DNA of 64,000 nucleotides. Source: Streptomyces sp. HUAS MG91. GTDB lineage: Bacteria > Actinomycetota > Actinomycetes > Streptomycetales > Streptomycetaceae. Position numbers and translations under genes: made by a program. Under the pieces are notes generated by a model. That model searched no databases. It had not been told where the DNA came from and was given only the letters and a program-made list of their open reading frames with translations. Every line of letters begins with the position of its first letter. The stretch's first letter is position 1. The stretch covers positions 7,068,001-7,132,000 of the forward strand of contig NZ_CP159534.1 in the NCBI RefSeq assembly GCF_040529335.1, read 5' to 3'. Positions 47,675 to 64,000 of this stretch are shown piece after piece.

Positions 47675-48865
47675 GTGAGACGCATGACGGCTCGGCCCGC
47701 GAACGCGCACCAGGCACGACTTCTGCGGCTGCTGCGCGACGGAGGGCCCAACTCCCGTGCCCAGCTGGGCGATCAGATCGACCTCTCGCGGTCGAAGCTG
47801 GCCGTCGAGGTGGACCGGCTCCTGGAGACCGGACTCGTGGTGGCCGACGGCCTGGCCGCATCGCGCGGCGGCCGCCGCTCGCACAACATCCGGCTCGCGC
47901 CCGAACTCCGCTTCCTCGGCGTCGACATCGGCGCGACCTCGGTCGATGTCGCGGTCACCAACGCCGAGTTGGAGGTTCTCGGACACATCAACCAGCCCAT
48001 GGACGTGCGTGAGGGCCCGGTCGCGGTCTTCGAGCAAGTACTCGCCATGGCGGCCAAGTTGAAGGCCTCGGGACTCGCCGAGGGGTTCGACGGAGCGGGC
48101 ATCGGCGTGCCCGGCCCCGTCCGCTTCCCCGAGGGAGTCCCGGTCGCCCCGCCGATCATGCCCGGCTGGGACGGCTTCCCGGTCCGCGAGGCGCTCAGCC
48201 AGGACCTGGGCTGCCCGGTGATGGTCGACAACGACGTGAACCTGATGGCGATGGGCGAGCAGCACGCGGGCGTCGCCCGCACCGCCCGCGACTTCCTCTG
48301 CGTCAAGATCGGTACCGGCATCGGCTGCGGCATCGTCGTCGGCGGCGAGGTCTACCGCGGCACGACCGGTTCCGCGGGCGACATCGGGCACATCCAGGTC
48401 GAACCGGACGGCCGCCAGTGCGCCTGCGGCAACAAGGGCTGCCTGGAGGCCTACTTCAGCGGCGCGGCACTCGCCCGCGACGCCGAGGAGGCCGCCCGCG
48501 ACGGCCGCTCGCCCGAACTGGCCACCCTGCTGGAGGCGTCGGGCCGGCTCAGCGCGTCCGACGTCGCGGTGGCGGCGGCCACCGGTGACGGCACCTCCCT
48601 CGACCTGATCCGCGAGGGCGGCAACCGCACCGGCCAGGTCATCGCCTCACTCGTCAGCTTCTTCAACCCCGGCCTGGTCGTCATCGGCGGCGGTGTCACC
48701 GGACTCGGTCACACCCTCCTCGCCGCGCTGCGCACCCAGGTCTACCGCCAGTCACTGCCCCTGGCCACCGGCAACCTCCCCATCGTCCTCGGGGAGTTGG
48801 GGCCCACCGCCGGAGTCATCGGCGGCGCCCGCCTGATCAGCGACCACCTGTTCTCACCCGCGTAG
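47675..48865 (+). CDS. ROK-family transcriptional regulator
   Basis: The protein has 396 residues. An N-terminal MarR-like helix-turn-helix (about 10-65, ARLLRLLRDGGPNSRAQLGD) is joined to a ROK sugar-kinase-like domain with the phosphate loop GVDIGATSVDVAVTNAE and the zinc motif CACGNKGCLE. Such proteins usually repress sugar-use genes and are released by the sugar. It directly precedes the Rbs-type ABC operon and is its likely regulator. GTG 47675 has GGAGG five bases upstream and was preferred to ATG 47684. Confidence 0.93.
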   Translation: MRRMTARPANAHQARLLRLLRDGGPNSRAQLGDQIDLSRSKLAVEVDRLLETGLVVADGLAASRGGRRSHNIRLAPELRFLGVDIGATSVDVAVTNAELEVLGHINQPMDVREGPVAVFEQVLAMAAKLKASGLAEGFDGAGIGVPGPVRFPEGVPVAPPIMPGWDGFPVREALSQDLGCPVMVDNDVNLMAMGEQHAGVARTARDFLCVKIGTGIGCGIVVGGEVYRGTTGSAGDIGHIQVEPDGRQCACGNKGCLEAYFSGAALARDAEEAARDGRSPELATLLEASGRLSASDVAVAAATGDGTSLDLIREGGNRTGQVIASLVSFFNPGLVVIGGGVTGLGHTLLAALRTQVYRQSLPLATGNLPIVLGELGPTAGVIGGARLISDHLFSPA

Positions 48866-49027
48866 ACACCCTCGCGGGACCGGCATCTCAGCACAGCGCT
48901 CTGCTCCGCCCTGCCCTGACGCACGTCGCTCGGCCGCACCATGCCCCGCCGCACCTCGCTTTGTCACACCCTGTTCCGCCCTGCTCTGCCCTGAACCCGG
49001 CCCGCACCCGTTCATAAGGGAACCGCC

Positions 49028-50578
49028 ATGGCACCCACGGCACCATCGGCACCTCAGGCACCACCGGCATCAGAATCGCCGCTGCTCACCATGTCCGGCA
49101 TCACCAAGTCGTTCCCCGGTGTCCGCGCCCTCGACGGCGTGGACCTGGAGGTCCGCGCGGGGGAGGTCCACTGCCTGCTCGGCCAGAACGGCGCGGGCAA
49201 GTCCACCCTCATCAAGGTCCTCGCCGGCGCCCACCAGCCCGACGAGGGGACCATCACCTGGCGCGGGGAAACGGTCACCCTGCGCTCGCCGATCGCCGCG
49301 ATGCGGCTGGGCATCGCCACCATCTACCAGGAGCTGGACCTGGTGCAGCACCTGTCGGTGGCCGAGAACGTTCACCTCGGCCACGAGCCGACGGCGGGCG
49401 GGTTCGTCGTACGGCGCCGGGACGCCAAGGCGTCAACAGCCGCACTGCTCAAGCGACTTGGGCACGGTGAGATCGACCCGGGCACCCTGGTGGGCGACCT
49501 CCCGGCGGCCGGACAGCAGATCGTCTCCATGGCCCGCGCCCTCTCCCACGACGTCCGTCTGATCGTCATGGACGAGCCGTCGGCCGCGCTCGACCCCGAC
49601 GAGGTCGACAACCTCTTCCGCATCGTCGCGGGACTCACCGCGGAGGGCGTCGCCGTCGTCTACATCTCGCACCGCCTGGAGGAGATCCGCCGCATCGGCG
49701 ACCGGGTCACGGTCCTCAAGGACGGCCGCTCGGTGGCCGACGGCCTCCCGGCGAAGGACACCCCGACCCGCGACGTGGTCGCCCTGATGACCGGCCGCAA
49801 CGTGGAGTACGTCTTCCCGGACCGGCCGGCCGCGGCCGCCACCGCCGAGCCGGTCCTGAGGGCACGGAACCTCTCCCGCGCCGGCGAGTTCGCCCCGCTC
49901 GACCTGGACGTCCGTCCCGGCGAGATCGTCGGCCTGGCCGGTCTGGTCGGCTCCGGCCGCTCCGAGATCCTGGAGACGATCTACGGCGCCCGGAAACCGA
50001 CGTCCGGTCAGATCACCTTGGACGGAGGGGAGTTGCGTACCGGGAGCGTTCGCGCGGCGGTCCGCGCGGGGCTCGGGCTCGCCCCGGAGGAACGCAAGGC
50101 GCAGGCTCTGCTGATGCTGGAGTCGGTGACCCGCAACGTCTCCGTCTCCTCCATGTCCCGCTTCGCGCGCGGCGGCTGGCTCGACCGGCGCGGGGAACGG
50201 AAGGCGGCGCTGGAGGCCACCCGCGAACTCCACATCCGCCCCGACAACCCCTCGGTCCCCGTCCGTACCCTGTCCGGCGGCAACCAGCAGAAGGCGGTCC
50301 TGGCGCGCTGGCTGCTGCGCGGCTGCAAGGTCCTCCTCCTCGATGAGCCCACCCGCGGTGTCGACGTCGGCGCCCGCGCCGAGCTCTACGCCGTGATCCG
50401 CCGCCTGGCCGACGAGGGCCTGGGCGTCCTGCTGGTCTCCAGCGAGGTCCCCGAGGTCCTGGGCCTGGCCGACCGCGTCCTGGTCCTGCGGGAAGGAACG
50501 GTCGTCCACGAGGCCCCGGCCCGCGACCTGACCGAACACCGCGTCCTGGACCTGGTCATGGAAGGCACCCCAACGTGA
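49028..50578 (+). CDS. Sugar ABC transporter ATPase, RbsA/MglA-type (two ABC domains)
   Basis: The protein has 516 residues with two ATPase domains. The first has Walker A GQNGAGKST and Walker B LIVMDEPSAAL. The second has a degenerate Walker A GLVGSGRSE, signature LSGGNQQK and Walker B LLLDEPTRGVDVG. This asymmetry is usual in RbsA/XylG-type proteins. It energises uptake of a monosaccharide or related polyol. A 162-base gap separates it from the ROK gene. Five 69-base repeats separate it from its permease gene. Confidence 0.95.
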   Translation: MAPTAPSAPQAPPASESPLLTMSGITKSFPGVRALDGVDLEVRAGEVHCLLGQNGAGKSTLIKVLAGAHQPDEGTITWRGETVTLRSPIAAMRLGIATIYQELDLVQHLSVAENVHLGHEPTAGGFVVRRRDAKASTAALLKRLGHGEIDPGTLVGDLPAAGQQIVSMARALSHDVRLIVMDEPSAALDPDEVDNLFRIVAGLTAEGVAVVYISHRLEEIRRIGDRVTVLKDGRSVADGLPAKDTPTRDVVALMTGRNVEYVFPDRPAAAATAEPVLRARNLSRAGEFAPLDLDVRPGEIVGLAGLVGSGRSEILETIYGARKPTSGQITLDGGELRTGSVRAAVRAGLGLAPEERKAQALLMLESVTRNVSVSSMSRFARGGWLDRRGERKAALEATRELHIRPDNPSVPVRTLSGGNQQKAVLARWLLRGCKVLLLDEPTRGVDVGARAELYAVIRRLADEGLGVLLVSSEVPEVLGLADRVLVLREGTVVHEAPARDLTEHRVLDLVMEGTPT

Positions 50579-50604
50579 ACCTTCCGAACAGCCGACAGGA
50601 GTGC

Positions 50605-50949
50605 CCCGTAAGGGGCGCGGGGAACGGCGCGAGCAACCACATACAACCGGCACCCGACAGCCGAGGGAACGCTCCCGTAGGGGGCGCGGGGAACGGCGCG
50701 AGCAACCACATACAACCGGCACCCGACAGCCGAGGGAACGCTCCCGTAGGGGGCGCGGGGAACGGCGCGAGCAACCACATACAACCGGCACCCGACAGCC
50801 GAGGGAACGCTCCCGTAGGGGGCGCGGGGAACGGCGCGAGCAACCACAAACAACCGGCACCCGACACCCGACGGAACGCCCCCGCAAGGGGCACGGGGAA
50901 CGCCGCGACCAGCCACAAACACCCCGCACTCGGCACCCGACACCCCACC
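50605..50949. repeat. Five tandem 69-bp repeats between the ABC ATPase and permease genes
   Basis: Units begin at 50605, 50674, 50743, 50812 and 50881, each about 69 bases, starting CCCGTAGGGGGCGCGGGGAA and containing GCAACCACATACAACCGG and CACCCGACAGCCGAGGGAAC. Copies 2-4 are nearly identical; 1 and 5 are diverged. As 69 is 23 codons, the frame stays open through all units on both strands without being a gene. Single copies of the core lie at about 47380 and 55433. The 406-base gap (50579-50984) holds nothing else except the permease ribosome-binding site AGAAGGG. Confidence 0.95.
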
Positions 50950-50984
50950 CCCGAGCCGCACCCCACAAGAAGGGACCCGGCGCG

Positions 50985-52007
50985 ATGACGCAGCCCGCCA
51001 CACCCACCCGCCCGGCGGAGCCGAACCGCGCCGCCGTCACCAAATCCCGCCCCAAAACCCTCGGCGCCCTCCACATGGACATCCGCACCCTGTCCCTGCT
51101 CGGCGTCCTCGCCGCCCTGATCGTCATCGGCGGCATCACCCAGCCCGACAGCTTCCTGGACGGCGACAACGTCCAGCTGATCCTGACCCAGGCCTCCGTC
51201 ATCGGCGTCGTCACCGTCGGCATGACATTCGTGATCATCTCCGGCGGCATCGACCTCTCCGTCGGCGCGATCGTGGCGCTCGCCAGCGTCTGGGCCTCCA
51301 CCGTCGCGACCCAGGAGTACGGCTTCGTCGGCATCCTGTTCACGGCGATCCTCGTCGGCGTCGGCTGCGGCCTGGTCAACGGCGTCCTCATCGCGTACGG
51401 CAACATCGTCCCCTTCATCGCCACCCTGGCGATGCTGGCATCGGGCCGCGGCCTCGCCCTCCAGATCACCGACGGCAAGACCCAGATGATCACGGTGGAC
51501 TCCGTGCTGAAGCTGGGCGAACGCGACTCCTACATCCTCGGCATCCCGCCGCTGGTCCTCGTCTTCGCCGCGGTCACCGTCATCGGCTGGCTCGTCCTGA
51601 ACCGCACCACGTTCGGCCGCCGCTCCGTCGCGGTCGGCGGCAACCCCGAGGCGGCCCGGCTCGCCGGCATCGACGTCCGCCGCCAGCGGCTCTACCTGTA
51701 CCTGCTGTCCGGCCTGTGCTGCGGCATCGCCGCGTTCCTGCTGCTCGTCCTCGCCGGATCGGGCCAGAACACCAACGGAAACCTGTACGAACTCGACGCC
51801 ATCGCCGCAGCCATCATCGGCGGCACCCTGCTCACCGGCGGCCGCGGCAGCATCGTCGGCTCCGTCCTCGGCGTCCTGATCTTCATCACGATCCAGAACA
51901 TCTTCGCGCTGAACAACCTCGAGACCGCGACCCAGCAGATCGCCAAGGGCGCGATCATCGTCGCCGCGGTGCTGCTCCAGCGACGTACGGCCAACACCAC
52001 TTCATGA
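50985..52007 (+). CDS. Sugar ABC transporter permease, RbsC-type
   Basis: The protein has 340 residues with 8-10 membrane helices. The conserved RbsC-type permease motif reads GMTFVIISGGIDLSVGAIVA, with AVGGNPEAARLAGIDV in the cytoplasmic loop and ELDAIAAAIIGGTLLTGGRG near the end. It forms the channel for the sugar delivered by the 52028 binding protein. The open frame extends upstream through the tandem repeats, but ATG 50985 is the first start with AGAAGGG upstream and a sensible N-terminus. Confidence 0.95.
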   Translation: MTQPATPTRPAEPNRAAVTKSRPKTLGALHMDIRTLSLLGVLAALIVIGGITQPDSFLDGDNVQLILTQASVIGVVTVGMTFVIISGGIDLSVGAIVALASVWASTVATQEYGFVGILFTAILVGVGCGLVNGVLIAYGNIVPFIATLAMLASGRGLALQITDGKTQMITVDSVLKLGERDSYILGIPPLVLVFAAVTVIGWLVLNRTTFGRRSVAVGGNPEAARLAGIDVRRQRLYLYLLSGLCCGIAAFLLLVLAGSGQNTNGNLYELDAIAAAIIGGTLLTGGRGSIVGSVLGVLIFITIQNIFALNNLETATQQIAKGAIIVAAVLLQRRTANTTS

Positions 52008-52027
52008 GTTCGGAAAGGGACGACGCC

Positions 52028-53089
52028 ATGCCAGAGTCGACAAGCGTGTCGAGCCGCAGAAGCCTCCTGTTCGGCGCGGCCGCCGCGGTCACCGCGGGCG
52101 GCCTGCTCACGGCCTGCACCAGCAACGAGCCGAGCGACAAGAGTGACGGCGGCAGCAAGCCCGCCGACCAGCCGGTCGCGGACAGCAAGCCGGGCAAGCA
52201 GGTCACCATCGGGTTCGCGGGCCCGCAGGCCGACCACGGCTGGCTCAACGCGATCACCGACAACGCCAAGGACCGGGCGAAGAAGTACTCCGACGTGACG
52301 CTGGAGGCGACGGAGGGCTCGAACGACACGGCCGCCCAGATCGGCCAGGTCGAGACCCTCATCAACAAGAAGGTCGACGTCCTCGTCGTGCTGCCCGCCG
52401 ACGGCAAGGCGCTGACCCAGGTCGGCCTGAAGGCGATGCGCGCGGGCATCCCCGTCGTGAACCTCGACCGGATCTTCGACACCCCGCAGGCGTATCGCTG
52501 CTGGATCGGCGGCGACAACTACGGCATGGGCCTGTCGGCCGGCAACTACATCGGCGAGAAGCTCAAGGACAAGAAGAACGCGAAGGTCGTCGAGCTCGCC
52601 GGCCTCGACAACCTCGAACTCACCAAACAGCGCAGCCAGGGCTTCGACGACGCCCTGAAGAACTACCCGAACATCAAGAAGGTGGCCCGTCAGGCCGCCG
52701 ACTTCACGGTCGAGTCGGGCCAGGCCAAGATGTCCCAGCTGCTCCAGGCGCAGAAGAACTTCGACGCGCTCTGGAACCACGACGACGACCAGGGCGTCGG
52801 CGCCCTGCGCGCCATCGAGCAGGCCGGCCGCGACGACTTCCTGATGGTCGGCGGCGCGGGCGCCCTCTCCGCGTTCGAGGCGATCAAGAGCGGCCGCGGC
52901 GTCCTGAAGGCCACCGTCCTCTACCCGCCCACGATGGCCGCGTCCGCCATCGACCTCGCCCGCGCCCTCGGCCAGGGCAAGGGGATCGGTGGTATGGCCG
53001 AGTTCGAGATCCCGGCCCACGTGACCCTGTACTCGGCCGTCGTCGACGAGACGAACGTCGACAAGTACATGTCCACCGGCTTCAAGTGA
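52028..53089 (+). CDS. Sugar ABC transporter substrate-binding lipoprotein, RbsB-type
   Basis: The protein has 353 residues. The leader has a twin-arginine-like motif (SSRRSLLFGAAAAV) and a lipobox ending LLTAC, so it may be a Tat-exported lipoprotein. The type I periplasmic-binding fold of ribose/inositol-type proteins follows (TIGFAGPQADHGWLNAITDN, VVVLPADGKAL, GIPVVNLDRIFDTPQAYRCW). The ligand is probably a monosaccharide, inositol or a related compound; not determined. Start ATG 52028 has AAAGGGA upstream. It is the last gene of the importer and is followed 58 bases later by the Gfo/Idh/MocA gene. A weak stem at 53087-53114 may attenuate. Confidence 0.94.
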   Translation: MPESTSVSSRRSLLFGAAAAVTAGGLLTACTSNEPSDKSDGGSKPADQPVADSKPGKQVTIGFAGPQADHGWLNAITDNAKDRAKKYSDVTLEATEGSNDTAAQIGQVETLINKKVDVLVVLPADGKALTQVGLKAMRAGIPVVNLDRIFDTPQAYRCWIGGDNYGMGLSAGNYIGEKLKDKKNAKVVELAGLDNLELTKQRSQGFDDALKNYPNIKKVARQAADFTVESGQAKMSQLLQAQKNFDALWNHDDDQGVGALRAIEQAGRDDFLMVGGAGALSAFEAIKSGRGVLKATVLYPPTMAASAIDLARALGQGKGIGGMAEFEIPAHVTLYSAVVDETNVDKYMSTGFK

Positions 53090-53147
53090 TGCGGCCCGCG
53101 GGCACGGCGCATCAGGCGAACCCGGCGTGGACGAGGAGGACTTCGGC

Positions 53148-54419
53148 ATGGCAGGAAGCAGCACCGGCACGACGGCCCGCGAACCGGGCGGTGACGACGA
53201 CACGAAGGTGAAGCCGGCGACGCCCGGCGAACCGAAGCCCGTCCTCGGCGTCGGCATGGTCGGCTACGCGTTCATGGGCGCCGCCCACTCCCAGGGGTGG
53301 CGCACCGTGGGCCGGGTCTTCGACCTGCCGCTCACCCCGCGCCTCGCCGCGGTCTGCGGCCGCGACGGACAGGCCGTGCGCGCCGCGGCCGACCGGCTCG
53401 GCTGGGCCGCGGCGGAGACGGACTGGCGGGCGCTGATCGCCCGCGACGACGTCGACCTCGTCGATGTGTGCACACCCGGCGACAGCCACGCCGAGATCGC
53501 CATCGCCGCGCTGGAAGCGGGCAAGCACGTGCTGTGCGAGAAGCCGCTCGCCAACTCCGTCGAGGAGGCGCAGGCGATGACGGAGGCCGCCGAACGCGCC
53601 GAGCGGCGCGGCCAGGTGGCGATGACCGGCTTCAACTACCGGCGGGTCCCGGCCATCGCCCTGGCCCGCCGCATGATCGCCGAGGGGCGCCTCGGCACCC
53701 TGCGACACGTGCGCGTCAGCTATCTCCAGGACTGGCTCGTCGACCCCTCCTTCCCGCTGACCTGGCGACTTCAGAAGCCGTACGCGGGCTCGGGCGCCCT
53801 CGGCGACCTCGGCGCGCACGCCGTGGACCTCGCGCAGTTCCTCGCGGGCGAGCCGGTGGCCGGGGTGTCGGCGCTCACCGAGACGTTCGTCCGCGAACGC
53901 CCGCTGCTCGCCGGGGCCTCCTCCGGCCTGTCGGCGGCCGGCGGCCCCGGGGGAGGGGAGTCGGGCCTCGGCCAGGTCACCGTCGACGACGCGGCACTCT
54001 TCACCGGCCGCTTCGCCTCCGGCGCCCTCGCCTCCTTCGAGGCGACCCGCTTCGCGACCGGCCGCAAGAACGCCCTCAAGGTCGAGCTCAACGGCGAGCG
54101 CGGCTCGCTCGCCTTCGACCTGGAGCGCCTGAACGAACTCTTCTTCCACGACCACACCGAGCCCGGTGTCAGCGCGGGCTTCCGCCGCATCCTCGTCACC
54201 GAACCCGACCACCCCTACCTGGAGGCGTGGTGGCCGCCGGGCCACGGCCTCGGCTACGAGCACACCTTCGCGCACCAGGCCCACGACCTGGTGCGGGCGA
54301 TCGCCGAAGGCACCGCGCCCGCCCCGTCGTTCGCCGACGGACTCCAGGTGCAGCGCGTGCTGGCGGCCGTCGAGGAGAGCGCGGCGAAGAACTCGGTCTA
54401 CACCCCCGTACCGGTCTGA
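53148..54419 (+). CDS. Gfo/Idh/MocA-family oxidoreductase
   Basis: The protein has 423 residues. The N-terminal Rossmann domain begins at about 37 (LGVGMVGYAFMGAAHSQGWR), with the EKP dinucleotide-family motif in HVLCEKPLANSVEEAQ. The C-terminal alpha/beta domain has YLQDWLVDPSFPLTWR and GALGDLGAHAVDLAQFL, with the catalytic-type Asp/His pair. The family oxidises or reduces sugars, inositols and 3-keto-sugars with NAD(P). It is encoded between the ABC importer and a sugar isomerase, and probably acts on the imported compound or its product. ATG 53148 has GAGGAGG eight bases upstream. Confidence 0.93.
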   Translation: MAGSSTGTTAREPGGDDDTKVKPATPGEPKPVLGVGMVGYAFMGAAHSQGWRTVGRVFDLPLTPRLAAVCGRDGQAVRAAADRLGWAAAETDWRALIARDDVDLVDVCTPGDSHAEIAIAALEAGKHVLCEKPLANSVEEAQAMTEAAERAERRGQVAMTGFNYRRVPAIALARRMIAEGRLGTLRHVRVSYLQDWLVDPSFPLTWRLQKPYAGSGALGDLGAHAVDLAQFLAGEPVAGVSALTETFVRERPLLAGASSGLSAAGGPGGGESGLGQVTVDDAALFTGRFASGALASFEATRFATGRKNALKVELNGERGSLAFDLERLNELFFHDHTEPGVSAGFRRILVTEPDHPYLEAWWPPGHGLGYEHTFAHQAHDLVRAIAEGTAPAPSFADGLQVQRVLAAVEESAAKNSVYTPVPV

Positions 54420-54431
54420 GGAGGCCCACCC

Positions 54432-55430
<999 letters not shown>

Positions 55431-55697: not shown

Positions 55698-58600
55698 GTG
55701 CACAGCAGCAGAAACAGAACCCGCAGCAGAACCCGAAACGGGCCCGCACGGCACTCCAGGCTCCGCACCAGCCTCGCCCTGCTCACCGGTTCGGTACTGA
55801 TCGGCTCGTCCCTGGCGCTCGCCGCGCCCGGCACGGCCAGCGCCCACCCGGACCACCCCGACGAGCCCGCCGCCGCATCGGACTTCCAGCAGGTCACCCT
55901 CGCCAAGGGCGCCGACGAGACCGGCGAGCCCATGTCGCTCGCCGTGCTCCCGGACCGCAGTGTCCTGCACACCTCCCGCGACGGCACCCTGCGCCTGACC
56001 GACGAGGGCGGCAGCACCTCCGTCGCCGGCAAGCTCGACGTGTACAACCACGACGAGGAGGGCCTCCAGGGCGTCGGCGTCGACCCGGGCTTCAAGGACA
56101 ACCGGTTCATCTACCTCTACTACGCCCCGCCGCTGGACACCCCGAGCGGAGACGCCCCCGAGACGGGCACGGCCGCCGACTTCGCCAAGTTCGACGGCGT
56201 GAACCGGCTGGCCCGCTTCGTCCTCAAGGAGGACGGCACCCTCGACAAGGCCAGCGAGAAGAACGTCATCGAGGTCAAGACCTCCCGCGGCACCTGCTGC
56301 CACGTCGGCGGCGACATCGACTTCGACGCCGACGGCAACCTGTACCTGTCGACCGGCGACGACACCAACCCCTTCGCCTCCGACGGCTACACCCCGATCG
56401 ACGAGCGCGCCGACCGCAACCCCGCCTTCGACGCGCAGCGCAGCTCCGGCAACACCAACGACCTGCGCGGCAAGGTCCTCCGCATCAAGGTGAAGGCGGA
56501 CGGCACCTACGACATCCCCGAGGGCAACCTCTTCGCGCCGGGCACCGAGAAGACCCGCCCCGAGATCTACGCGATGGGCTTCCGCAACCCGTTCCGCATC
56601 AGCGTCGACAAGCCCACCGGCACCGTCTACGTCGGCGACTACGGCCCCGACGCCGGCGCCGCCGACCCCAAGCGCGGTCCCGCGGGCCAGGTCGAGTTCG
56701 CCAAGATCACCAAGGCGGGCAACTTCGGCTGGCCGTACTGCACCGGTGACAACGACGCCTACGTCGACTACGACTTCGCCACCAAGGCCTCCGGCGCCAC
56801 CTTCGACTGCGCCGCGCCGAAGAACACCTCGCCGAACAACACCGGCATTACCGACCTGCCCCCGGCCCAGGCCGCCTGGATCCCGTACGACGGCGGCAGC
56901 GTCCCCGAGTTCGGCTCCGGCTCCGAGTCGCCCATGGCCGGACCCGTCTACCGCTACGACGCCGACCTCGACTCCCCGGTGAAGTTCCCCGAGGAGTACG
57001 ACGGCGACTTCTTCGCCGGCGAGTTCGGACGCCAGTGGATCAAGCGGATCGAGCAGGACGGCGACGGCAAGGTCTCGAAGATCAACGACTTCCCGTGGAC
57101 CGGCACCCAGGTCATGGACAGCGCCTTCGGCCCCGACGGCGCCCTGTACGTCCTCGACTACGGCCTCTCCTGGTTCGGCGGCGACGAGCACTCGGCGCTG
57201 TACCGCATCGAGAACGCCACCGGCGGCCACTCGCCGATCGTCGAGGCCAAGGCCTCCAAGACGTCCGGGCAGTCGCCGCTGCGCACCACGTTCACCGCGA
57301 CCGGCACCGACGCCGACGACGACCCCATCACCTACAGCTGGGACTTCGGCGACGGCTCCAAGGGCACCGGCGCCAACCCGAGCCACACGTACCGCAAGGA
57401 CGGCACCTACGTCGCGACCGTCACCGGTGACGACGGCACCGGACGCACCGGAAACGCCAGCGTCCACATCACGGTCGGCAACACGGCCCCGACGGTGAAG
57501 TTCCAGAACCCGGCGAACGGTTCGCTGTTCAAGTTCGGCGACAAGATTCCCTTCAAGGTCGCCGTCAGCGACCCCGAGGACGGCACGATCGACTGCTCCA
57601 AGGTCACCGTGCGCTACCTCCTGGGCCATGACAACCACGCCCACGAGCTGACCTCGGTCAAGGGCTGCGAAGGCACCATCACCGTGCCCGCCGACTCCGA
57701 GCACGACCCGAACGCCAACATCTACGGCGTGCTCGACGCCGAGTACACCGACGGCGGCGGAGGCGGCCAGGCCGCGCTGACCACGCACGACCAGGTCCAG
57801 CTCCAGCCGCGCCACCGCCAGGCCGAGCACTACACCAAGCAGCAGGGCACCACACAGCAGAGCAAGACCTCGGCCAACGGCGGCAAGACCGTCGGCGACA
57901 TCAACGACGGCGACTGGATCTCCTTCACCCCCTACAACCTCACCGGGGCCAACAAGCTCACCGCCCGGGTCTCGTCCGCCGGATCGGGCGGTTTCCTGGA
58001 GGTGCGCACCGGCTCGCCGACCGGCACCCTGCTGGGCTCCACGACGGTCCCCGTCACCGGCAGCTGGGACACCTTCCAGAACGTCGACGTCCCGCTGAAG
58101 AACGTCCCGAAGAAGACCACCGACCTGTACCTCGTCTTCAAGGGCGGTGACGGCGCGCTCTACGACGTCGACGACTTCGAGATCACCAGCGACGCCGCTG
58201 TGAAGGGCGCCAAGCGGGTCCTCGTCTTCTCCAAGACGGCCGGCTTCCGCCACGACGCCATCCCCGAGGGCATCGCCGCCCTGAAGGAACTCGGCAAGAG
58301 CAGCGACATCACCGTCGACGCCACCGAGTCCGCCGCCCAGTTCACCACCAACAACCTCGCCCGCTACGACGCGGTGGTCTTCATGTCCACCACGGGTGAC
58401 GTCCTCAACGACGACCAGCAGAAGGCGTTCGAGGAGTACATCGCCAAGGGCGGCGGCTACATGGGCATCCACGCAGCCGCCGACACCGAGTACGACTGGT
58501 CGTACTACGGCGGCCTCGTCGGCGCCTACTTCGACTCCCACCCGGCCATCCAGAAGGCCACCGTGCGCGTCGAGGACAAGACCAACCCGGCCACCGCCCA

Positions 58601-59432
58601 CCTGGACGACGCCTGGGAGCGCACCGACGAGCTGTACAACTACCGCACCAACCCGCGCGACAAGGTCCACGTCCTGGCCACCCTGGACGAGACCACGTAC
58701 ACGGGCGGCAACATGAAGGGCGACCACCCGATCGCCTGGTGCCAGAGCTACGGCGGCGGCCGCTCCTTCTACACCGGCCTCGGCCACACCAAGGAGTCCT
58801 ACGCCGACGACGCCTTCCGCACCCACCTGCTCGGCGGTCTGAAGTACGCCACCGGACAGGCCAAGGCGGACTGCAAGCCCAACAAGGACTACCGGCCGAT
58901 CTTCAACGGCCAGTCCCTGGACGGCTGGAAGCAGGCCGGCCCCGGCAAGTTCAACGTCAAGGACGGCACCCTGGAGTCCGAGGGCGGCATGGGCCTGCTC
59001 TGGTACCAGGCCAAGGAGCTGAAGTCGTACTCCCTCAAGCTGGACTGGAAGATGCGGGGCGACGACAACTCCGGCGTCTTCGTGGGCTTCCCCGCCTCCG
59101 ACGACCCCTGGTCGGCGGTGAACAAGGGCTACGAGATCCAGATCGACGCCACCGACGCCCCCGACCGCACCACCGGGTCGATCTACACCTTCAAGGCGGC
59201 GAACATCAAGGCCCGTGACGCGGTCCTGCGCCCGCCCGGCCAGTGGAACTCCTACGAGATCAAGGTCCAGGGCGAACGCCTCCAGGTGTTCCTCAACGGA
59301 GTCAAGATCAACGACTTCACCAACAAGGACCCCGAGCGGAGCCTGACCGACGGCTACATCGGCATCCAGAACCACGGCGCCGACGACCAGGTCTCCTACC
59401 GCAACATCCAGCTCAAGGAACTGCCCCAGTAG
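55698..59432 (+). CDS. Secreted multidomain protein: PQQ-type sugar dehydrogenase propeller, PKD, CBM6-like, ThuA and DUF1080
   Basis: The protein has 1244 residues. A signal peptide (about 1-49, ending TASA) is followed by a beta-propeller of the glucose/sorbosone dehydrogenase family (about 60-500; HVGGDIDFDADGNLYLSTGD, YAMGFRNPFRISVD). A PKD domain (about 515-595, YSWDFGDGSKGTGANPSHTY) and a CBM6-like beta-sandwich (about 700-835, VGDINDGDWISFTPYNL) come next. A ThuA-like domain (about 840-1055, VLVFSKTAGFRHDAIPEGI) and a C-terminal DUF1080/3-keto-disaccharide-hydrolase-like domain (about 1065-1244, PIFNGQSLDGWKQAGPGKFN) complete it. It probably oxidises and/or cleaves extracellular glycosides. 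Start GTG 55698 has GGAGGGA six bases upstream. Its position after the sugar importer and isomerase supports a glycan-use role. Confidence 0.93.
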   Translation: MHSSRNRTRSRTRNGPARHSRLRTSLALLTGSVLIGSSLALAAPGTASAHPDHPDEPAAASDFQQVTLAKGADETGEPMSLAVLPDRSVLHTSRDGTLRLTDEGGSTSVAGKLDVYNHDEEGLQGVGVDPGFKDNRFIYLYYAPPLDTPSGDAPETGTAADFAKFDGVNRLARFVLKEDGTLDKASEKNVIEVKTSRGTCCHVGGDIDFDADGNLYLSTGDDTNPFASDGYTPIDERADRNPAFDAQRSSGNTNDLRGKVLRIKVKADGTYDIPEGNLFAPGTEKTRPEIYAMGFRNPFRISVDKPTGTVYVGDYGPDAGAADPKRGPAGQVEFAKITKAGNFGWPYCTGDNDAYVDYDFATKASGATFDCAAPKNTSPNNTGITDLPPAQAAWIPYDGGSVPEFGSGSESPMAGPVYRYDADLDSPVKFPEEYDGDFFAGEFGRQWIKRIEQDGDGKVSKINDFPWTGTQVMDSAFGPDGALYVLDYGLSWFGGDEHSALYRIENATGGHSPIVEAKASKTSGQSPLRTTFTATGTDADDDPITYSWDFGDGSKGTGANPSHTYRKDGTYVATVTGDDGTGRTGNASVHITVGNTAPTVKFQNPANGSLFKFGDKIPFKVAVSDPEDGTIDCSKVTVRYLLGHDNHAHELTSVKGCEGTITVPADSEHDPNANIYGVLDAEYTDGGGGGQAALTTHDQVQLQPRHRQAEHYTKQQGTTQQSKTSANGGKTVGDINDGDWISFTPYNLTGANKLTARVSSAGSGGFLEVRTGSPTGTLLGSTTVPVTGSWDTFQNVDVPLKNVPKKTTDLYLVFKGGDGALYDVDDFEITSDAAVKGAKRVLVFSKTAGFRHDAIPEGIAALKELGKSSDITVDATESAAQFTTNNLARYDAVVFMSTTGDVLNDDQQKAFEEYIAKGGGYMGIHAAADTEYDWSYYGGLVGAYFDSHPAIQKATVRVEDKTNPATAHLDDAWERTDELYNYRTNPRDKVHVLATLDETTYTGGNMKGDHPIAWCQSYGGGRSFYTGLGHTKESYADDAFRTHLLGGLKYATGQAKADCKPNKDYRPIFNGQSLDGWKQAGPGKFNVKDGTLESEGGMGLLWYQAKELKSYSLKLDWKMRGDDNSGVFVGFPASDDPWSAVNKGYEIQIDATDAPDRTTGSIYTFKAANIKARDAVLRPPGQWNSYEIKVQGERLQVFLNGVKINDFTNKDPERSLTDGYIGIQNHGADDQVSYRNIQLKELPQ

Positions 59433-59601: not shown

Positions 59602-60741
59602 ATGTCCGCCGAACCGTCCCTCCCCAACCCCGCCCCCCGCTTCGGTGTCTGGCTGATCGGAGCACGCGGCTCCGTCGCCACGACCGCGATCGCCGGCAGC
59701 GCCGCCGTCGCTGCCGGACTCCACCCGCCGACCGGCATGGTCACCGAGACCACCCCCTTCCTCTCCTGCGGCCTGCCGCCGCTGTCCTCCCTCGTCTTCG
59801 GCGGCCACGACACCGTCGACTGCCCACTGCCCAAACGCGCCGAGCACCTCGCCGAAGGCGGCGTCCTGCCCCACGGCCTGCCCGCCGCCGTCCACGCCGA
59901 ACTCGCCGAAGCCGACCGGCAGATCAAGCCCGGCGGCCCGCTGACCGGCCACGACGACCCCCGCTCGCAGGACGAGCTGATCGACGCGTTCGCCGCCGAC
60001 ATCGTTGCCTTCGTCCGGGACCAGGACCTCGCCGGCGCCGTCGTCGTGAACGTCGCCTCCACCGAACCCGTCCCCACCGGCGACACCCTGCCGCCCAGCT
60101 CCCTCTACGCGGCCGCCGCCCTCCGCGCCGGCTGCCCCTACGTCAACTTCACCCCCTCGTCCGGCCTGCACCACCCCGCCCTCGCGGCCGACGCCGCGAC
60201 AGCCTCCGTCCCCTACGCGGGCCGCGACGGCAAGACGGGACAGACCCTCCTGCGCTCCGTGCTCGGCCCGATGTTCCTGCACCGCGCCCTCGCCGTCCGC
60301 GCCTGGTCCGGCACCAACCTCCTGGGCGGCGGCGACGGAGCCGCCCTCGCCGACCCGGCCGCGGCCGCCGCCAAGAACGCGGGCAAGGAACGCGTCCTCA
60401 CCGACACCCTCGGCGCCGCCCCGCAGGGCGAGGTCCACATCGACGACGTCCCCGCCCTCGGCGACTGGAAGACCGCCTGGGACCACATCGCCTTCGACGG
60501 CTTCCTCGGCGCCCGCATGGTCCTCCAGACCACCTGGCAGGGCTGCGACTCCGCGCTCGCCGCGCCCCTCGTCCTCGACCTGGCCCGGCTCCTGCTGCGC
60601 GCGCACACCGCCGGACTCACCGGCCCGCGCCCCGAACTGGGCTTCTACTTCAAGGACCCCGACCCCGGAGCGGGCGCCGCACTCGGCGAGCAGTACGCCG
60701 CCCTGGTGGACTTCGCGGACCGCCTGCGAGGCGCCCGATGA
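59602..60741 (+). CDS. Inositol-3-phosphate synthase-like protein of an Ebo-type operon
   Basis: The protein has 379 residues. The N-terminal dinucleotide fold has VWLIGARGSVATTAIAGSAA. The later tracts YVNFTPSSGLHHPAL, DGKTGQTLLRSVLG and NLLGGGDGAAL are those of the myo-inositol-phosphate synthase family (NAD-dependent cyclisation of a hexose phosphate). The family in such clusters has not been characterised to my knowledge, so a different cyclitol is possible. It is the first gene of a five-gene coupled unit; its end overlaps the prenyltransferase by four bases (ATGA). A CAAGGAGG-type site lies before ATG 59602. Confidence 0.9.
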   Translation: MSAEPSLPNPAPRFGVWLIGARGSVATTAIAGSAAVAAGLHPPTGMVTETTPFLSCGLPPLSSLVFGGHDTVDCPLPKRAEHLAEGGVLPHGLPAAVHAELAEADRQIKPGGPLTGHDDPRSQDELIDAFAADIVAFVRDQDLAGAVVVNVASTEPVPTGDTLPPSSLYAAAALRAGCPYVNFTPSSGLHHPALAADAATASVPYAGRDGKTGQTLLRSVLGPMFLHRALAVRAWSGTNLLGGGDGAALADPAAAAAKNAGKERVLTDTLGAAPQGEVHIDDVPALGDWKTAWDHIAFDGFLGARMVLQTTWQGCDSALAAPLVLDLARLLLRAHTAGLTGPRPELGFYFKDPDPGAGAALGEQYAALVDFADRLRGAR

Positions 60742-61622
60742 CCCGGACGACCCTGCGGGCCTGGGCCGAACTCCTCAGGCTCCCCGCCCTGTTCACCGTC
60801 CCCGGCGACGCACTCGTGGGCACGGCCGCGGTGGGCGCCCGCCCCGGCTGCGGCACCTTCCTGGCCATCGGCTCCTCCCTGTGTCTGTACGAGGCGGGCA
60901 TGGCCCTCAACGACTGGGCCGACCGCGCCGAGGACGCCATCGACCGGCCCCACCGGCCCATCCCCTCCGGCCGCATCCACCCCGGCAGCGCCCTCGCGGC
61001 GGCCGGACTCCTCACCGCGGCCGGAGTCGGCCTCGCCTCCCGGGCCGGGCGAGTGCCCGCGGCGATCTCGGCAGCGCTGGCGGCCACCGTCTGGGCGTAC
61101 GACCTCGGCCTGAAACGCACCCCCGCCGGTCCGGTCGCCATGGGCGCGGCCCGCGGCCTCGACGTCCTGCTGGGAGCGGGCGCCGCCCAGGACGGCGGAG
61201 CCAAACCGCTGGGCTCGGCCACCGGCGCCGCTCTCACCATGACCGCGCACACCACGGCCGTCACCGCGGTGTCCCGCCACGAGACCACGGGCGGCAACGC
61301 CCTCGCACCGGCAGCGGCCCTGGCCACCACCGCCACCCTGGCCGGAGCCCTCCTCAGAACCCCGGTAGGCCGAGGCGCCGCAGCCCCCCTCGGCCTACCG
61401 GGCCCCACCGCGTACGCCCTGACCGCCGCCCGCCCCCTGCTCCACGCCGCGCTCAATCCCTCGCCACCCCTGACCCAGCGCGCCGTGGGCGCCGGCATCC
61501 GCGCGATGATCCCGCTCCAGGCAGCCCTGACGGCCCGCGCGGCAGCCCCGGTGCCGGCCCTTCTCACCGCCGCCCTCGCCCCGCTCGCCCGGCGCTTCGC
61601 GAAGAAGGTGAGCGTCACATGA
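60738..61622 (+). CDS. UbiA-type prenyltransferase (SCO3242-like/EboC-like)
   Basis: The protein has 294 residues and multiple membrane helices. A UbiA-type Asp-rich site is visible as NDWADRAEDAIDRPHRPIPS, with a second region YDLGLKRTPAGPVAMGAARG. The family transfers a prenyl chain to an acceptor, usually in the membrane. Such a protein occurs in Ebo clusters (EboC) and as an SCO3242-type enzyme in Streptomyces. The second motif is less acidic than in ubiquinone-type enzymes. It overlaps both neighbours by four bases (ATGA at 60738 and at 61619), so expression is tightly coupled. Confidence 0.9.
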   Translation: MTRTTLRAWAELLRLPALFTVPGDALVGTAAVGARPGCGTFLAIGSSLCLYEAGMALNDWADRAEDAIDRPHRPIPSGRIHPGSALAAAGLLTAAGVGLASRAGRVPAAISAALAATVWAYDLGLKRTPAGPVAMGAARGLDVLLGAGAAQDGGAKPLGSATGAALTMTAHTTAVTAVSRHETTGGNALAPAAALATTATLAGALLRTPVGRGAAAPLGLPGPTAYALTAARPLLHAALNPSPPLTQRAVGAGIRAMIPLQAALTARAAAPVPALLTAALAPLARRFAKKVSVT

Positions 61623-62497
61623 CCCGCACCGCGCAGCTCGCCACCCCGCGCTGGGGATACGGCACCAACGGCCTCACCGACCTCCGCCTCGACGACGCCC
61701 TCGCCCTCCTGGCCGACCTCGGCTACGACGGCGTCGGCCTCACCCTCGACCACATGCATCTCGACCCCCTGGCCCCCGACCTCGCGGCCCGCACCCGCCG
61801 GGTCGCCCGCACCCTGCACCGCCACCACCTCACGGCCACCGTCGAGACCGGCGCCCGCTACGTCCTCGATCCACGCCGCAAACACGGCCCCTCCCTCCTC
61901 GACCCCGACCCGGACGCCCGCGCGGCCCGGGCCCGCCTGCTCGTCCGCGCGGTCCAGGTCGCCGCCGACCTGGGCGCGCACGCCGTTCACTGCTTCAGCG
62001 GCATCACCCCGGACAACACCGACCGGGACACCGCTTGGAAGCGCCTCGCCGACGCCCTCGACCCCGTCCTGAACGCCGCCGACGACGCCGGGATCCCCCT
62101 CGCCATCGAGCCCGAGCCCGGCCATCTCCTGGCCACGCTCGCCGACTTCCACCACCTGCGCCGCGCCCTCGGCAGCCCCAACGCGCTCGGCCTCACCCTC
62201 GACCTCGGCCACTGCCAGTGCCTGGAGCCCGAACCGCCCGCCGACTGCGTGCGTGCGGCGGCCCCCTGGCTGCGCCACGTCCAGATCGAGGACATGCGCC
62301 GCGGCGTCCACGAACACCTGCCCTTCGGGGAGGGGGAGATCGACTTCCCGCCCCTCCTCGACGCCCTCGCGGCCACCGGCTACCAGGGCCTGACGGTCGT
62401 CGAACTGCCCCGCCACTCCCACGCGGGCCCGGACCTCGCCGCCGCATCCCTCTCGTTCCTCCGGGCGGCCGCGGCACAAGGAGGCAGCAGCGCATGA
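61619..62497 (+). CDS. Sugar phosphate isomerase/epimerase-like TIM-barrel protein of the Ebo-type operon
   Basis: The protein has 292 residues with an AP-endonuclease-2/xylose-isomerase TIM-barrel fold. Metal-site residues are visible in AIEPEPGH (Glu), LDLGHCQC (Asp, His), HVQIEDMRRGVHEHLPFGEG and VVELPRHSH (Glu, His). The N-terminus GYGTNGLTDLRLDDALALLA is typical. The substrate is unknown, and it may act on a sugar-like head group of the product made by the operon. It overlaps the upstream prenyltransferase and downstream EboA genes by four bases each. Confidence 0.9.
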   Translation: MTRTAQLATPRWGYGTNGLTDLRLDDALALLADLGYDGVGLTLDHMHLDPLAPDLAARTRRVARTLHRHHLTATVETGARYVLDPRRKHGPSLLDPDPDARAARARLLVRAVQVAADLGAHAVHCFSGITPDNTDRDTAWKRLADALDPVLNAADDAGIPLAIEPEPGHLLATLADFHHLRRALGSPNALGLTLDLGHCQCLEPEPPADCVRAAAPWLRHVQIEDMRRGVHEHLPFGEGEIDFPPLLDALAATGYQGLTVVELPRHSHAGPDLAAASLSFLRAAAAQGGSSA

Positions 62498-63132
62498 GCG
62501 GACCGACCACCATCGCCGCCCTCCGGGCCCACCTCGACACCGCCCTGCCCGGCGCCGCCCGCGCCTGGCTCGACCAGGCCCTCGCCGAAGCGGCGGCCAC
62601 CGGCCCGACCGGCGACGACCCACAGCCCTCGCTCTGGGAAACACGGTTCGCCGAGGCCGGCCGGCGCACCGGCCAGGACCACGCCGACTCCGCCCGCGTC
62701 CTGCTGCTGCACGCCGTCCGCGCCGACACCGCCACCCTCACCCGCCTGTACGCGCAGGGCACCGCCGACGAACGCCGCGCCGTCCTGCACGCCCTGCCCC
62801 ATCTCGTCCCGGGCCCCGAGGGCCTGCCCCTCGTCGAGGACGCCCTGCGTACCAACGACACCCGCCTGGTCGCCGCCGCCGTCGGCCCGTACGCCGCCGA
62901 GCACCTGCCCGCCCACCCGTGGCGGCACGCCGTCCTCAAGTGCCTGTTCACCGGGGTGCCCACCGACACCGTCGCCGCACTGGGGGATCGGGCCCACGGC
63001 GACGCCGAACTCGCCCGCATGCTCGGGGACTTCGCGCAGGAGCGCACCGCGGCGGGCCGTCCCGTCCCCACCGACCTGACCCGGGTCCTCGCCCTGACCT
63101 CCCCGGCAGCCCCCACGGCGAAGGAGTCCTGA
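62494..63132 (+). CDS. eboA: EboA-domain protein
   Basis: The protein has 212 residues, soluble and mainly helical, with a HEAT-like feel: TRLYAQGTADERRAVLHALP, LVEDALRTNDTRLVAAAVGP and WRHAVLKCLFTGVPTD. These tracts, with length and context, match EboA. EboA is known as part of the eustigmatophyte/bacterial operon (ebo), which in cyanobacteria is needed for moving the scytonemin monomer to the periplasm. Its biochemical role is not known. It overlaps the upstream gene by four bases, has AGGAGG before its ATG, and its stop overlaps the next start by one base (TGATG). Confidence 0.87.
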   Translation: MSGPTTIAALRAHLDTALPGAARAWLDQALAEAAATGPTGDDPQPSLWETRFAEAGRRTGQDHADSARVLLLHAVRADTATLTRLYAQGTADERRAVLHALPHLVPGPEGLPLVEDALRTNDTRLVAAAVGPYAAEHLPAHPWRHAVLKCLFTGVPTDTVAALGDRAHGDAELARMLGDFAQERTAAGRPVPTDLTRVLALTSPAAPTAKES

Positions 63133-63983
63133 TGCGCATCTTCGACCCCCACATCCACATGACGTCGCGCACCACCGACGACTACGAGGCGATGTACGAG
63201 GCGGGCGTGCGCGCCCTCGTCGAACCCGCCTTCTGGCTCGGCCAGCCCCGCACCTCGCCCGCGTCCTTCTTCGACTACTTCGACGCGCTCCTCGGCTGGG
63301 AGCCCTTCCGGGCCGCGCAGTACGGCATCGCCCACCACTGCACGATCGCCCTCAACCCCAAAGAGGCCAACGACCCGCGCTGCACCCCGGTCCTCGACGC
63401 CCTGCCGCGCTACCTCGTCAAGGACGGCGTCGTCGCCGTCGGCGAGATCGGCTACGACTCGATGACCCCCGCCGAGGACACCGCCCTCGCCACCCAGCTC
63501 CAACTCGCCGCCGACCACGGCCTGCCCGCCCTGGTGCACACCCCGCACCGCGACAAACTCACCGGCCTGCACCGCACCCTCGACGTCGTCCGGGAGTCCG
63601 CGCTGCCCGTCGACCGGGTCCTGATCGACCACCTCAACGAGACCACGGTCAAGGACGCCAAGGACGCCGGGAGCTGGCTGGGCTTCTCCGTCTATCCCGA
63701 CACCAAGATGGACGAGGACCGCATGGTCGAGATCCTGCGTACCTACGGCACCGAGAAGGTCCTGGTCAATTCCGCCGCCGACTGGGGAAAGAGCGACCCG
63801 CTCAAGACCCGGCGGGTCGGCGAGACGATGCTGAAGGCCGGCTTCGACGACGACGACGTCGACCTCGTCCTGTGGCGCAACCCGGTCGCCTTCTACGCGC
63901 TCAGCGGCCGGCTCCAACTCGAACCCACCGCACCACCCTCGCCCACGCACGAGGGCAACTCCATCCTCCGCGGCGGAGCGTGA
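63132..63983 (+). CDS. eboB: TatD-like metal-dependent hydrolase (EboB-like)
   Basis: The protein has 283 residues with a TatD/amidohydrolase TIM barrel. The metal-binding DPHIHM at the N-terminus is followed by GEIGYD (Glu), LVHTPHRDK (His), IDHLNE (His) and NSAADWGKSDP (Asp). The substrate is unknown. It belongs to the Ebo set (EboB) and overlaps eboA by one base. The last about 20 residues are Pro/Ser-rich. The next gene begins three bases after its stop, so the operon continues beyond the window. Confidence 0.88.
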   Translation: MRIFDPHIHMTSRTTDDYEAMYEAGVRALVEPAFWLGQPRTSPASFFDYFDALLGWEPFRAAQYGIAHHCTIALNPKEANDPRCTPVLDALPRYLVKDGVVAVGEIGYDSMTPAEDTALATQLQLAADHGLPALVHTPHRDKLTGLHRTLDVVRESALPVDRVLIDHLNETTVKDAKDAGSWLGFSVYPDTKMDEDRMVEILRTYGTEKVLVNSAADWGKSDPLKTRRVGETMLKAGFDDDDVDLVLWRNPVAFYALSGRLQLEPTAPPSPTHEGNSILRGGA

Positions 63984-63986
63984 CCC

Positions 63987-64000
63987 ATGCGCTTCCGCCA
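63987..64000 (+). CDS. Start of next Ebo-operon gene, probable EboE
   Basis: Only the first 14 bases are in the window. ATG at 63987 begins MRFR, three bases after the eboB stop. In Ebo clusters the next gene is often eboE, whose actinobacterial versions, as I recall them, commonly begin MRFRHPDG. The identification depends on position and four residues only. Confidence 0.4.

Follow-up and report, generated by a model that had tools for sequence, protein, structure and literature searches.

The ebo operon has been described from eustigmatophyte plastids, Bacteroidetes and cyanobacteria, where the genes for EboA, EboB, an EboC-like protein, EboE and EboF are tightly clustered (PMC5133447). The idea advanced there that the pathway involves a cyclitol rests on EboD; the word inositol is absent from the main text of that paper, and Actinobacteria are mentioned in it once, in connection with EboA fusions (data not shown). 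In Nostoc, the loss of any ebo gene studied (eboD not being among them) is reported to leave the scytonemin monomer in the cytoplasm, and the ebo cluster of Nostoc punctiforme adjoins genes for secreted enzymes (PMC6282210). The UbiA-297 prenyltransferases of Flavobacteria and Saccharomonospora have been identified as the EboC group encoded in ebo clusters, and the in vitro farnesylation of quinolines by one flavobacterial EboC speaks against taking a cyclitol acceptor for granted; the acceptors tested with farnesyl diphosphate in the accessible part of that study were 14 aromatic compounds and no cyclitol (PMC9235831). Finally, a transferase (SCO3242) and a myo-inositol phosphate synthase (SCO3243) are named among the genes of the calcium-dependent antibiotic (CDA) cluster of Streptomyces coelicolor (PMC3610822). 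Our search of the literature on SCO3237-3240 as the rest of an ebo set yielded a single occurrence of SCO3237, in PMC8981147, and nothing was found under terms for the EboA domain, the EboE name or the SCO3242 family.

The DNA stretch analyzed here, hereafter the window, comprises 64,000 nucleotides of a Streptomyces chromosome (G000:C1:7068001-7132000) and ends within an operon that shares the tight clustering of EboA, EboB, an EboC-type protein, EboE and EboF with the operons described in PMC5133447 but differs from them in lacking EboD, in containing genes for an inositol-phosphate synthase (MIPS) and a TIM-barrel protein, and in its gene order, MIPS-C-TIM-A-B-E-F. All genes lie on the plus strand: an archaeal-type MIPS (59602..60741, 379 aa), an EboC-type UbiA prenyltransferase of the SCO3242 family (60738..61622, 294 aa), an isomerase/epimerase-like TIM-barrel protein, the partner of MIPS (61619..62497, 292 aa), EboA (62494..63132, 212 aa), the TatD-like metallo-hydrolase EboB (63132..63983, 283 aa), and the start of EboE (63987..64000, with the ATG at 63987), which is cut by the window end. 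The preliminary description had reported that the junctions between 59602 and 63983 overlap by 4, 4, 4 and 1 bases and that a sixth gene begins 3 bases later, and reading the sequence directly confirmed this. Examination of the sequence past 64000 for eboE and eboF (in L005, which is identical to the window where the two overlap) revealed both: the complete EboE gene (L005:7987-9159, 390 aa, equivalent to window positions 63987-65159) is followed by a gene for an EboF-type phosphodiesterase (65156-66553), with a 4-base ATGA overlap between the two, which extends the chain to seven genes. Judging from these overlaps and the single short gap, the seven genes are predicted to form a single transcription unit.

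The assignment of the cluster to the Ebo type, likewise proposed at the outset, is supported by the profile matches of EboA (167 bits against NF035938, cut-off 50; 57 bits against the stricter NF035937, under its cut-off of 320) and EboE (429 bits against NF035939, cut-off 250). EboF matches PF01663 with 235 bits and has an EYG motif in common with each of the ten EboF or EboF-like proteins aligned with it. In the profile search, EboB matched PF01026 and no dedicated EboB model; its HxH, GEIG, HTPH and DH motifs are visible in the alignment, which extends through the metal motifs to the EboB proteins of Azospirillum, Mycetohabitans, Deinococcus and three haloarchaea. The prenyltransferase scores 359 bits against NF045897, the family named after SCO3242 (cut-off 260), 70 bits against PF01040 (cut-off 34.2) and 138 bits against the EboC-specific NF035940, below its cut-off of 250; an NDxxDxxxD-type stretch is apparent in the alignment. 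Its membership in the SCO3242-named family is the likeness seen to the CDA cluster of S. coelicolor, in which SCO3242 and SCO3243 are named as genes (PMC3610822).

Beyond what had been noted initially, EboD is missing, and MIPS and the TIM-barrel gene are found in its place. No EboD was detected in the source genome, where the sole match to dehydroquinate (DHQ) synthase lies at C1:1443428, far from the operon; this single match rules out an EboD encoded elsewhere in the genome. The TIM-barrel protein scores 162 bits against PF01261. The possibility that the gene at 61619 encodes EboE was rejected, given that EboE (NF035939) sits three genes downstream. The TIM-barrel and EboA genes read as one frame, a fusion, in one of the 76 assessable loci (4 of the best 80 of the scan could not be assessed); this single case was not used as evidence of linkage.

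Among the PLSDB plasmids, MIPS was found within 9 kb of EboE in 29 of 48 cases, EboD in 15, both in none and neither in 4; these rows are not independent, as they include many near-identical Streptomyces NBC strains, five Ketogulonicigenium and three Mycetohabitans, and the EboD rows are the 16 with at least 44% identity, a set that leaves out AroB rows, further cyclases and a record that was not listed. Close homologs of the TIM-barrel protein (E <= 1e-15) have MIPS within 6.2 kb in all 33 plasmid records and are absent from all 15 EboD-type plasmid loci. Of the best 80 named ebo loci of the scan, 64 extend 9 kb or more upstream of EboE, and 63 of these contain MIPS, while none of the 80 has an EboD match; in the other genera of the phylum sample, all 7 loci above the EboE cut-off contain MIPS, and none of these matches EboD. 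Thus, in terms of gene content, EboD and the MIPS-TIM pair are mutually exclusive in the loci examined. The operon is a distinct variant of ebo in which, from its gene complement, an archaeal-type MIPS together with a TIM-barrel partner appears to stand in for EboD.

The association with EboA in Streptomyces is not a matter of chance. Of 150 genomes sampled, 101 have both EboA and the operon-type MIPS, 41 have neither, 2 have just EboA and 6 just MIPS, a count that omits second fragments of split MIPS matches, a second place of equal score in G090 and weak canonical-like rows (Fisher p = 7e-28, a value that is descriptive only because related species are not independent). At 91 of the 114 Streptomyces MIPS places, EboA lies less than 8 kb away on the same strand. 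Thirteen Streptomyces ebo loci consist of EboC-TIM-A-B-E-F; the sequence retrieved around them gave no match to MIPS and none to EboD, so that there is no sign of EboD taking the place of MIPS in these loci; in two of them (G014 and G068), no operon-type MIPS is matched anywhere in the genome. Two near-complete EboE matches on Streptomyces plasmids also have neither MIPS nor EboD nearby. These cases weigh against the explanation favored below.

The operon MIPS matches both Pfam domains above their cut-offs (PF07994, 108.6 bits; PF01658, 99.9 bits), and its best match among solved structures is the Ino1 of Archaeoglobus fulgidus (1u1i, E 2.6e-55). Equivalents of all four catalytic lysines (K274, K278, K306 and K367), common to it and the A. 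fulgidus enzyme, and of N255 are retained in the alignment. Retention of the domains and lysines would agree with a gene that merely provides additional inositol for mycothiol and ordinary lipids, but we consider this highly improbable, considering that the protein is tied to the ebo genes and is far from canonical Ino1. As the preliminary description anticipated, it stands apart from ordinary actinobacterial Ino1: it scores 25 bits against the mycothiol Ino1 model TIGR03450, whose cut-off is 638, and aligns at about 25-32% with the canonical-like MIPS among the matches listed; this score and distance rule out an ordinary Ino1. Furthermore, a PF01658 match is present in all 150 Streptomyces genomes, with the matches listed scoring 123-132 bits; this resembles the canonical copy of the source genome, which scores 129 bits in the genome scan, and not the operon copy, which scores 103.5. 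The MIPS tree leaves 10 of its 25 inner branches open, and a very long branch leads to canonical Ino1; we therefore make no claim as to where the swap originated.

The actinobacterial ebo-type MIPS differ from the A. fulgidus enzyme in their ebo gene context and in an NLLGGGDG loop, which is also present in their relative L030 and where the remaining aligned MIPS have NILG(N/D)xDG or NVGGNMDF (the fragment L032 excepted). Sugar-phosphate cyclases like EboD yield ring ketones. Together with a weak match of the operon MIPS to 6k96, a five-membered-cyclitol-phosphate synthase, and with the below-cut-off matches of the TIM-barrel protein to isomerases, epimerases and inosose dehydratase, the altered loop could be taken to indicate that the product of this MIPS is not inositol phosphate but, for example, inosose phosphate or the phosphate of a five-membered cyclitol, and that the TIM-barrel protein acts on the ketone, with the remaining pathway unchanged. 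This alternative appears doubtful: the four lysines are retained, and the ebo-like MIPS of haloarchaea and Gemmatirosa have the usual Asn loop, so that an ebo setting does not require the altered loop.

The explanation that we favor as a whole, and to which we assign a probability of about one half, is that this is a variant ebo operon in which MIPS and the TIM-barrel protein replace EboD, and that it makes a prenyl-cyclitol lipid that aids metabolite export. MIPS would convert glucose 6-phosphate to inositol phosphate or produce an inosose-level relative that the TIM-barrel enzyme would reshape, and EboC could then add an isoprenyl chain to the cyclitol ring; the basis for this step is that its matches below the cut-offs include models for geranylgeranylglycerol-phosphate geranylgeranyltransferase, the enzyme that prenylates geranylgeranylglycerol phosphate. 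EboB, EboE and EboF might trim or otherwise process the prenylated ring, and EboA might help to keep the Ebo set together. The product would be a prenylated cyclitol, as the preliminary description had suggested, and the occurrence of an unrelated second ring-forming enzyme at the place of EboD lends independent support to the cyclitol step. In the membrane, this lipid could help the outward movement of a metabolite, upon which secreted beta-propeller enzymes, either of the ScyD/ScyE type or, at this locus, the GSDH-ThuA protein, would act. We infer the role in metabolite transport by analogy with the Nostoc mutants (PMC6282210); compared with the Nostoc punctiforme cluster, EboD is replaced here. 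The swap suggests readily available assay substrates (glucose 6-phosphate and inositol phosphates) and makes the idea of a ring-sugar product testable, and lipid work is far easier in Streptomyces than in eustigmatophyte plastids.

Upstream of the operon, also on the plus strand, lie genes for a ROK regulator, a sugar ABC transporter and a Gfo/Idh/MocA oxidoreductase (47675..54419; Pfam matches to the regulator, ATPase, binding protein and oxidoreductase), for another TIM-barrel protein of this sugar locus, uTIM (54432..55430, PF01261), and for a 1244-aa secreted-type protein that combines GSDH, PKD, CBM6, ThuA and 3-ketodisaccharide hydrolase domains in Pfam searches (55698..59432). These four components were matched in 20 of 20 genomes, uTIM was found 5' of MIPS in all 20, and the hydrolase was found in 19; among the best 80 named loci, the hydrolase is upstream in 61 of the 64 that extend 9 kb or more 5' of EboE. 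Because the chromosomal operon adjoins this importer locus, a carbohydrate role fits as well, and the operon might serve to take up and degrade an unusual glycoside or cyclitol rather than to export. The haloarchaeal loci of Halocatena, Natronococcus and Haladaptatus (three of four) similarly lie next to importer genes that are accompanied by genes for ThuA, PQQ sugar dehydrogenase or DUF1080, but the fourth, in Halobaculum, shows no importer. MIPS and UbiA are, moreover, biosynthetic enzymes, and four genomes (L164, L165, L167 and L168) contain the end of the importer locus with both the hydrolase and ebo missing. Thus, we regard an uptake role as unlikely, and the sugar locus at 47675..54419 is probably a unit separate from the ebo operon.

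A further observation against an uptake role is a complete ebo copy inside a type II polyketide cluster that also contains a ScyD/ScyE gene: no sugar importer was seen in the 49 kb gene list of this cluster. In two other Streptomyces plasmids, ScyD/ScyE is encoded immediately 5' of MIPS, so that some Streptomyces copies, like the Nostoc punctiforme cluster (PMC6282210), have genes for secreted enzymes close by, in their case of the ScyD/ScyE type. The polyketide-cluster copy and the SCO3242/SCO3243 pair suggest that antibiotic producers may use the system in export or late steps. It is conceivable, if rather questionable, that the pathway yields a free secondary metabolite, such as a protective or antibiotic-like prenyl cyclitol, and not a lipid carrier. 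An ebo product of this kind was proposed in section 3.7 of PMC5133447, and the Pseudomonas EDB cluster, as told in PMC6282210, was thought to produce a repellent compound; according to the same paper, however, Nostoc ebo mutants build up the scytonemin monomer, with gene-specific phenol-indole intermediates undetected.

Besides the polyketide cluster, the variant extends to haloarchaea, neither of which had been noticed originally: the MIPS-type version is found without EboA on three haloarchaeal plasmids, as a stripped set of B, C, F, MIPS and TIM, and a MIPS-type version is present in Gemmatirosa as well. Under a broader and more tentative extension of the favored explanation, ebo could be a machinery common to both domains whose product, a small ether lipid composed of a prenylated cyclitol phosphate, would be a carrier for metabolite export. 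The ring would be supplied in two unrelated ways, by either EboD or MIPS and TIM, with copies in Streptomyces antibiotic clusters and a stripped set in haloarchaea, and EboC would use inositol phosphate in the way that the lipid enzymes of archaea use glycerol phosphate. A single weak MIPS match was found in phage records. In one Streptomyces genome (G002), MIPS and the ebo genes are located on different contigs, and the ebo genes begin at the contig start.

The window covers bases 7068001-7132000 of the larger of the contigs of the Streptomyces sp. HUAS MG91 genome (8.6 Mb), and re-reading of the sequence bore out exactly the five genes, with their overlaps, that the preliminary description had assigned to an ebo operon: an inositol-phosphate-synthase-like gene (MIPS, window 59602-60741), an EboC-type UbiA prenyltransferase (60738-61622), a TIM-barrel partner (TIM, 61619-62497), EboA (62494-63132) and EboB (63132-63983). 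EboE and EboF were both found in the further stretch L005, where EboE (L005:7987-9159, plus strand) continues the chain and EboF (L005:9156-10553) completes it with a 4-base overlap. Family scans of the chain identified MIPS, UbiA (SCO3242 family), a xylose-isomerase-like TIM barrel, an EboA domain, a TatD-like protein, EboE and a type I phosphodiesterase. Upstream of MIPS, with 169 bases between, is the gene for a protein (55698-59432; hereafter the hydrolase) with GSDH, PKD, CBM6, ThuA and 3-keto-disaccharide hydrolase domains, a single protein here that appears as two separate matches in some relatives; downstream of EboF is a TIM-barrel protein with, as judged by eye, a twin-arginine type leader.

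The cyclitol idea for ebo rests on EboD, a sugar-phosphate cyclase, according to PMC5133447. The sole DHQ-synthase match of the whole genome is at C1:1443428, so the cluster in the window lacks EboD; of the two genomic MIPS matches, one is in the operon and the other at C1:4256142. In a survey of 72,556 plasmid records, where the counts are not independent because numerous strains are close, EboE was found in 48 records, with MIPS within 9 kb in 29, EboD in 15, both in none and neither in 4. The EboD-type loci inspected (Azospirillum, Mycetohabitans, Deinococcus, Ketogulonicigenium and Aureibacter) contain an annotated 3-dehydroquinate synthase inside the set. Close homologs of the window's TIM gene (E <= 1e-15) are present in 33 plasmid records, all 33 with MIPS at most 6.2 kb away, and in 0 of the 15 EboD-type loci. 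These co-occurrence counts indicate that MIPS and TIM move as a pair and that EboD swaps for that pair. Four of the 33 records (two Methylobacterium, Hymenobacter and Roseomonas) have no EboE nearby; in 3 of these 4 inspected (L128, L129, L135), no other ebo genes were matched, and the pair there possibly belongs to an unrelated cyclitol pathway. In Hymenobacter and Roseomonas, the two annotated EboE-less loci, a YcaO gene lies beside MIPS and TIM.

The top solved match of the operon MIPS is Archaeoglobus fulgidus Ino1 (E 2.6e-55), and the named homologs among the matches listed for the window protein are from Streptomyces. A mycothiol-type Ino1 is ruled out (25 bits vs the 638-bit cut-off), and the same scores separate the protein from the ordinary Ino1 with which, the preliminary description had allowed, it might cluster; canonical-like MIPS among the matches listed align to it at about 25-32%. 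All four catalytic lysines, together with the Asn (equivalents of K274, K278, K306, K367 and N255), are kept in 27 of the 28 MIPS aligned, the exception being L032, a broken-looking fragment; matched PDB mutant entries differ at three of these positions. The loop NLLGGGDG is found in the actinobacterial ebo-type MIPS compared and in L030, and the loop Asn or Asp is retained in the remaining MIPS aligned (L032 excepted), including the haloarchaeal and Gemmatirosa copies. L032 (G043:C3), which lacks the catalytic lysines, and L142 (G090:C1) are degenerate or fragmentary MIPS distant from ebo genes. In L030 (G047:C1:2480000-2497000), an operon-type MIPS without an ebo match adjoins two ScyD/ScyE-like matches.

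Across 150 Streptomyces genomes, EboA was matched in 103 (102 over the cut-off), EboE in 107 (104 over the cut-off) and operon-type MIPS in 107; EboA and this MIPS occur together in 101, EboA only in 2, MIPS only in 6 and neither in 41. Among the 114 MIPS places, 91 are on the same strand as EboA and at most 8 kb away, 1 is distant from EboA on a shared contig and 22 are on contigs without EboA, 13 of these beginning at most 5 kb from the first base of the contig (this end alone considered); 29 of the 120 EboA places have no MIPS within 8 kb. The best 80 loci of the contig scan, hence close relatives, include 64 in which 9 kb or more of sequence precedes EboE, and these contain MIPS and TIM (63/64 each), EboC matches (57/64), EboA, EboB and EboF (64/64 each) and the hydrolase (61/64); EboD was matched in 0 of the 80. 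In a phylum sample of 296 Actinomycetota genomes, 13 exceed the EboE cut-off (6 Streptomyces and 7 others), and all 7 non-Streptomyces genomes have MIPS-C-TIM-A-B-E-F, with 0/7 EboD matches in their loci. G420, from the same sample, lacks both MIPS and TIM and has a split EboE that scores under the cut-off.

Similar sets extend beyond the phylum. Plasmids of Halobaculum, Halocatena and Natronococcus encode an EboB-like TatD, TIM, UbiA, a second TIM, MIPS and an EboF-like phosphodiesterase, with no EboA match in these clusters; three of their TIM proteins score 21-28 bits vs 250 with the EboE model, and for the two UbiA proteins scanned the EboC model scores highest, under the cut-off. Haladaptatus has the set with MIPS absent within about 8 kb, Halomarina has a related MIPS without an ebo match, and Gemmatirosa has EboE, EboB, EboF, EboC, MIPS and TIM, with EboA unmatched. 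No published account of the haloarchaeal or Gemmatirosa sets was found among the open-licence PMC papers that the searches listed.

The ebo gene content, the exchange of EboD and the intact MIPS site are seen in the sequences. In the proposed route, MIPS, with TIM, would make a ring that EboC would prenylate, and the resulting lipid could help export. Models of geranylgeranylglycerol-phosphate enzymes are among the sub-cut-off matches of EboC proteins (third for the window protein, fourth among the others scanned), which suggests that the product could be an ether on a polyol phosphate; however, PMC9235831 reports that a flavobacterial EboC farnesylates quinolines in vitro. Phosphodiesterases usually read DHG at a metal motif where all 11 EboF or EboF-like proteins aligned (L005:9156-10553 and ten others, three of them haloarchaeal) have EYG; EboF could therefore differ from ordinary phosphodiesterases.

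Counting against the route through a MIPS-made ring are 13 of the 20 Streptomyces stretches inspected (L016-L021, L023-L029), which have EboC-TIM-A-B-E-F without a MIPS or EboD match; a P450 gene, named by eye, comes after these genes in L018 and L026, the two read on the downstream side. Two genomes with such MIPS-less loci (G014 and G068) have no operon-type MIPS match genome-wide. Either canonical Ino1 provides the ring at MIPS-less loci, or EboC has another acceptor there. Two near-complete EboE matches on Streptomyces plasmids also have no MIPS nearby, L137 (NZ_CP108489.1) contains an orphan EboE within a type II polyketide cluster with other ebo genes unmatched nearby, and one plasmid EboE is a fragment at the start of its record.

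Upstream of MIPS, a ROK-ABC-Gfo/Idh-uTIM locus (uTIM being the TIM-barrel gene at window 54432-55430) is present in 20/20 genomes, with the hydrolase in 19/20. Among the 150 Streptomyces, uTIM and MIPS are both present in 104, MIPS alone in 3, uTIM alone in 6 and neither in 37. In four of the six uTIM-alone genomes, the following 5 to 17 kb contain neither the hydrolase nor ebo; of the other two, one retains the hydrolase together with an EboF remnant, and one stops at a contig edge past the hydrolase. From these genomes and the neighbor counts, hydrolase-MIPS-ebo-secreted TIM seems to be a unit set beside a sugar importer.

The Streptomyces sp. AMCC400023 plasmid NZ_CP024990 (L143, NZ_CP024990.1 12000-61000) has all seven MIPS-type ebo genes inside a type II polyketide cluster, which presumably resembles kinamycin clusters, flanked by type II polyketide genes on one side and amidase, glutamine-synthetase, adenylosuccinate-lyase and GNAT genes on the other, and the region also contains a ScyD/ScyE gene. 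SCO3242 and SCO3243 are among the genes named for the CDA cluster in PMC3610822. In Nostoc, according to PMC6282210, the ebo genes studied are required for exit of the scytonemin monomer, and ScyE is proposed to act outside. In NBC_00019 and NBC_00663, ScyD/ScyE is encoded immediately upstream of MIPS.
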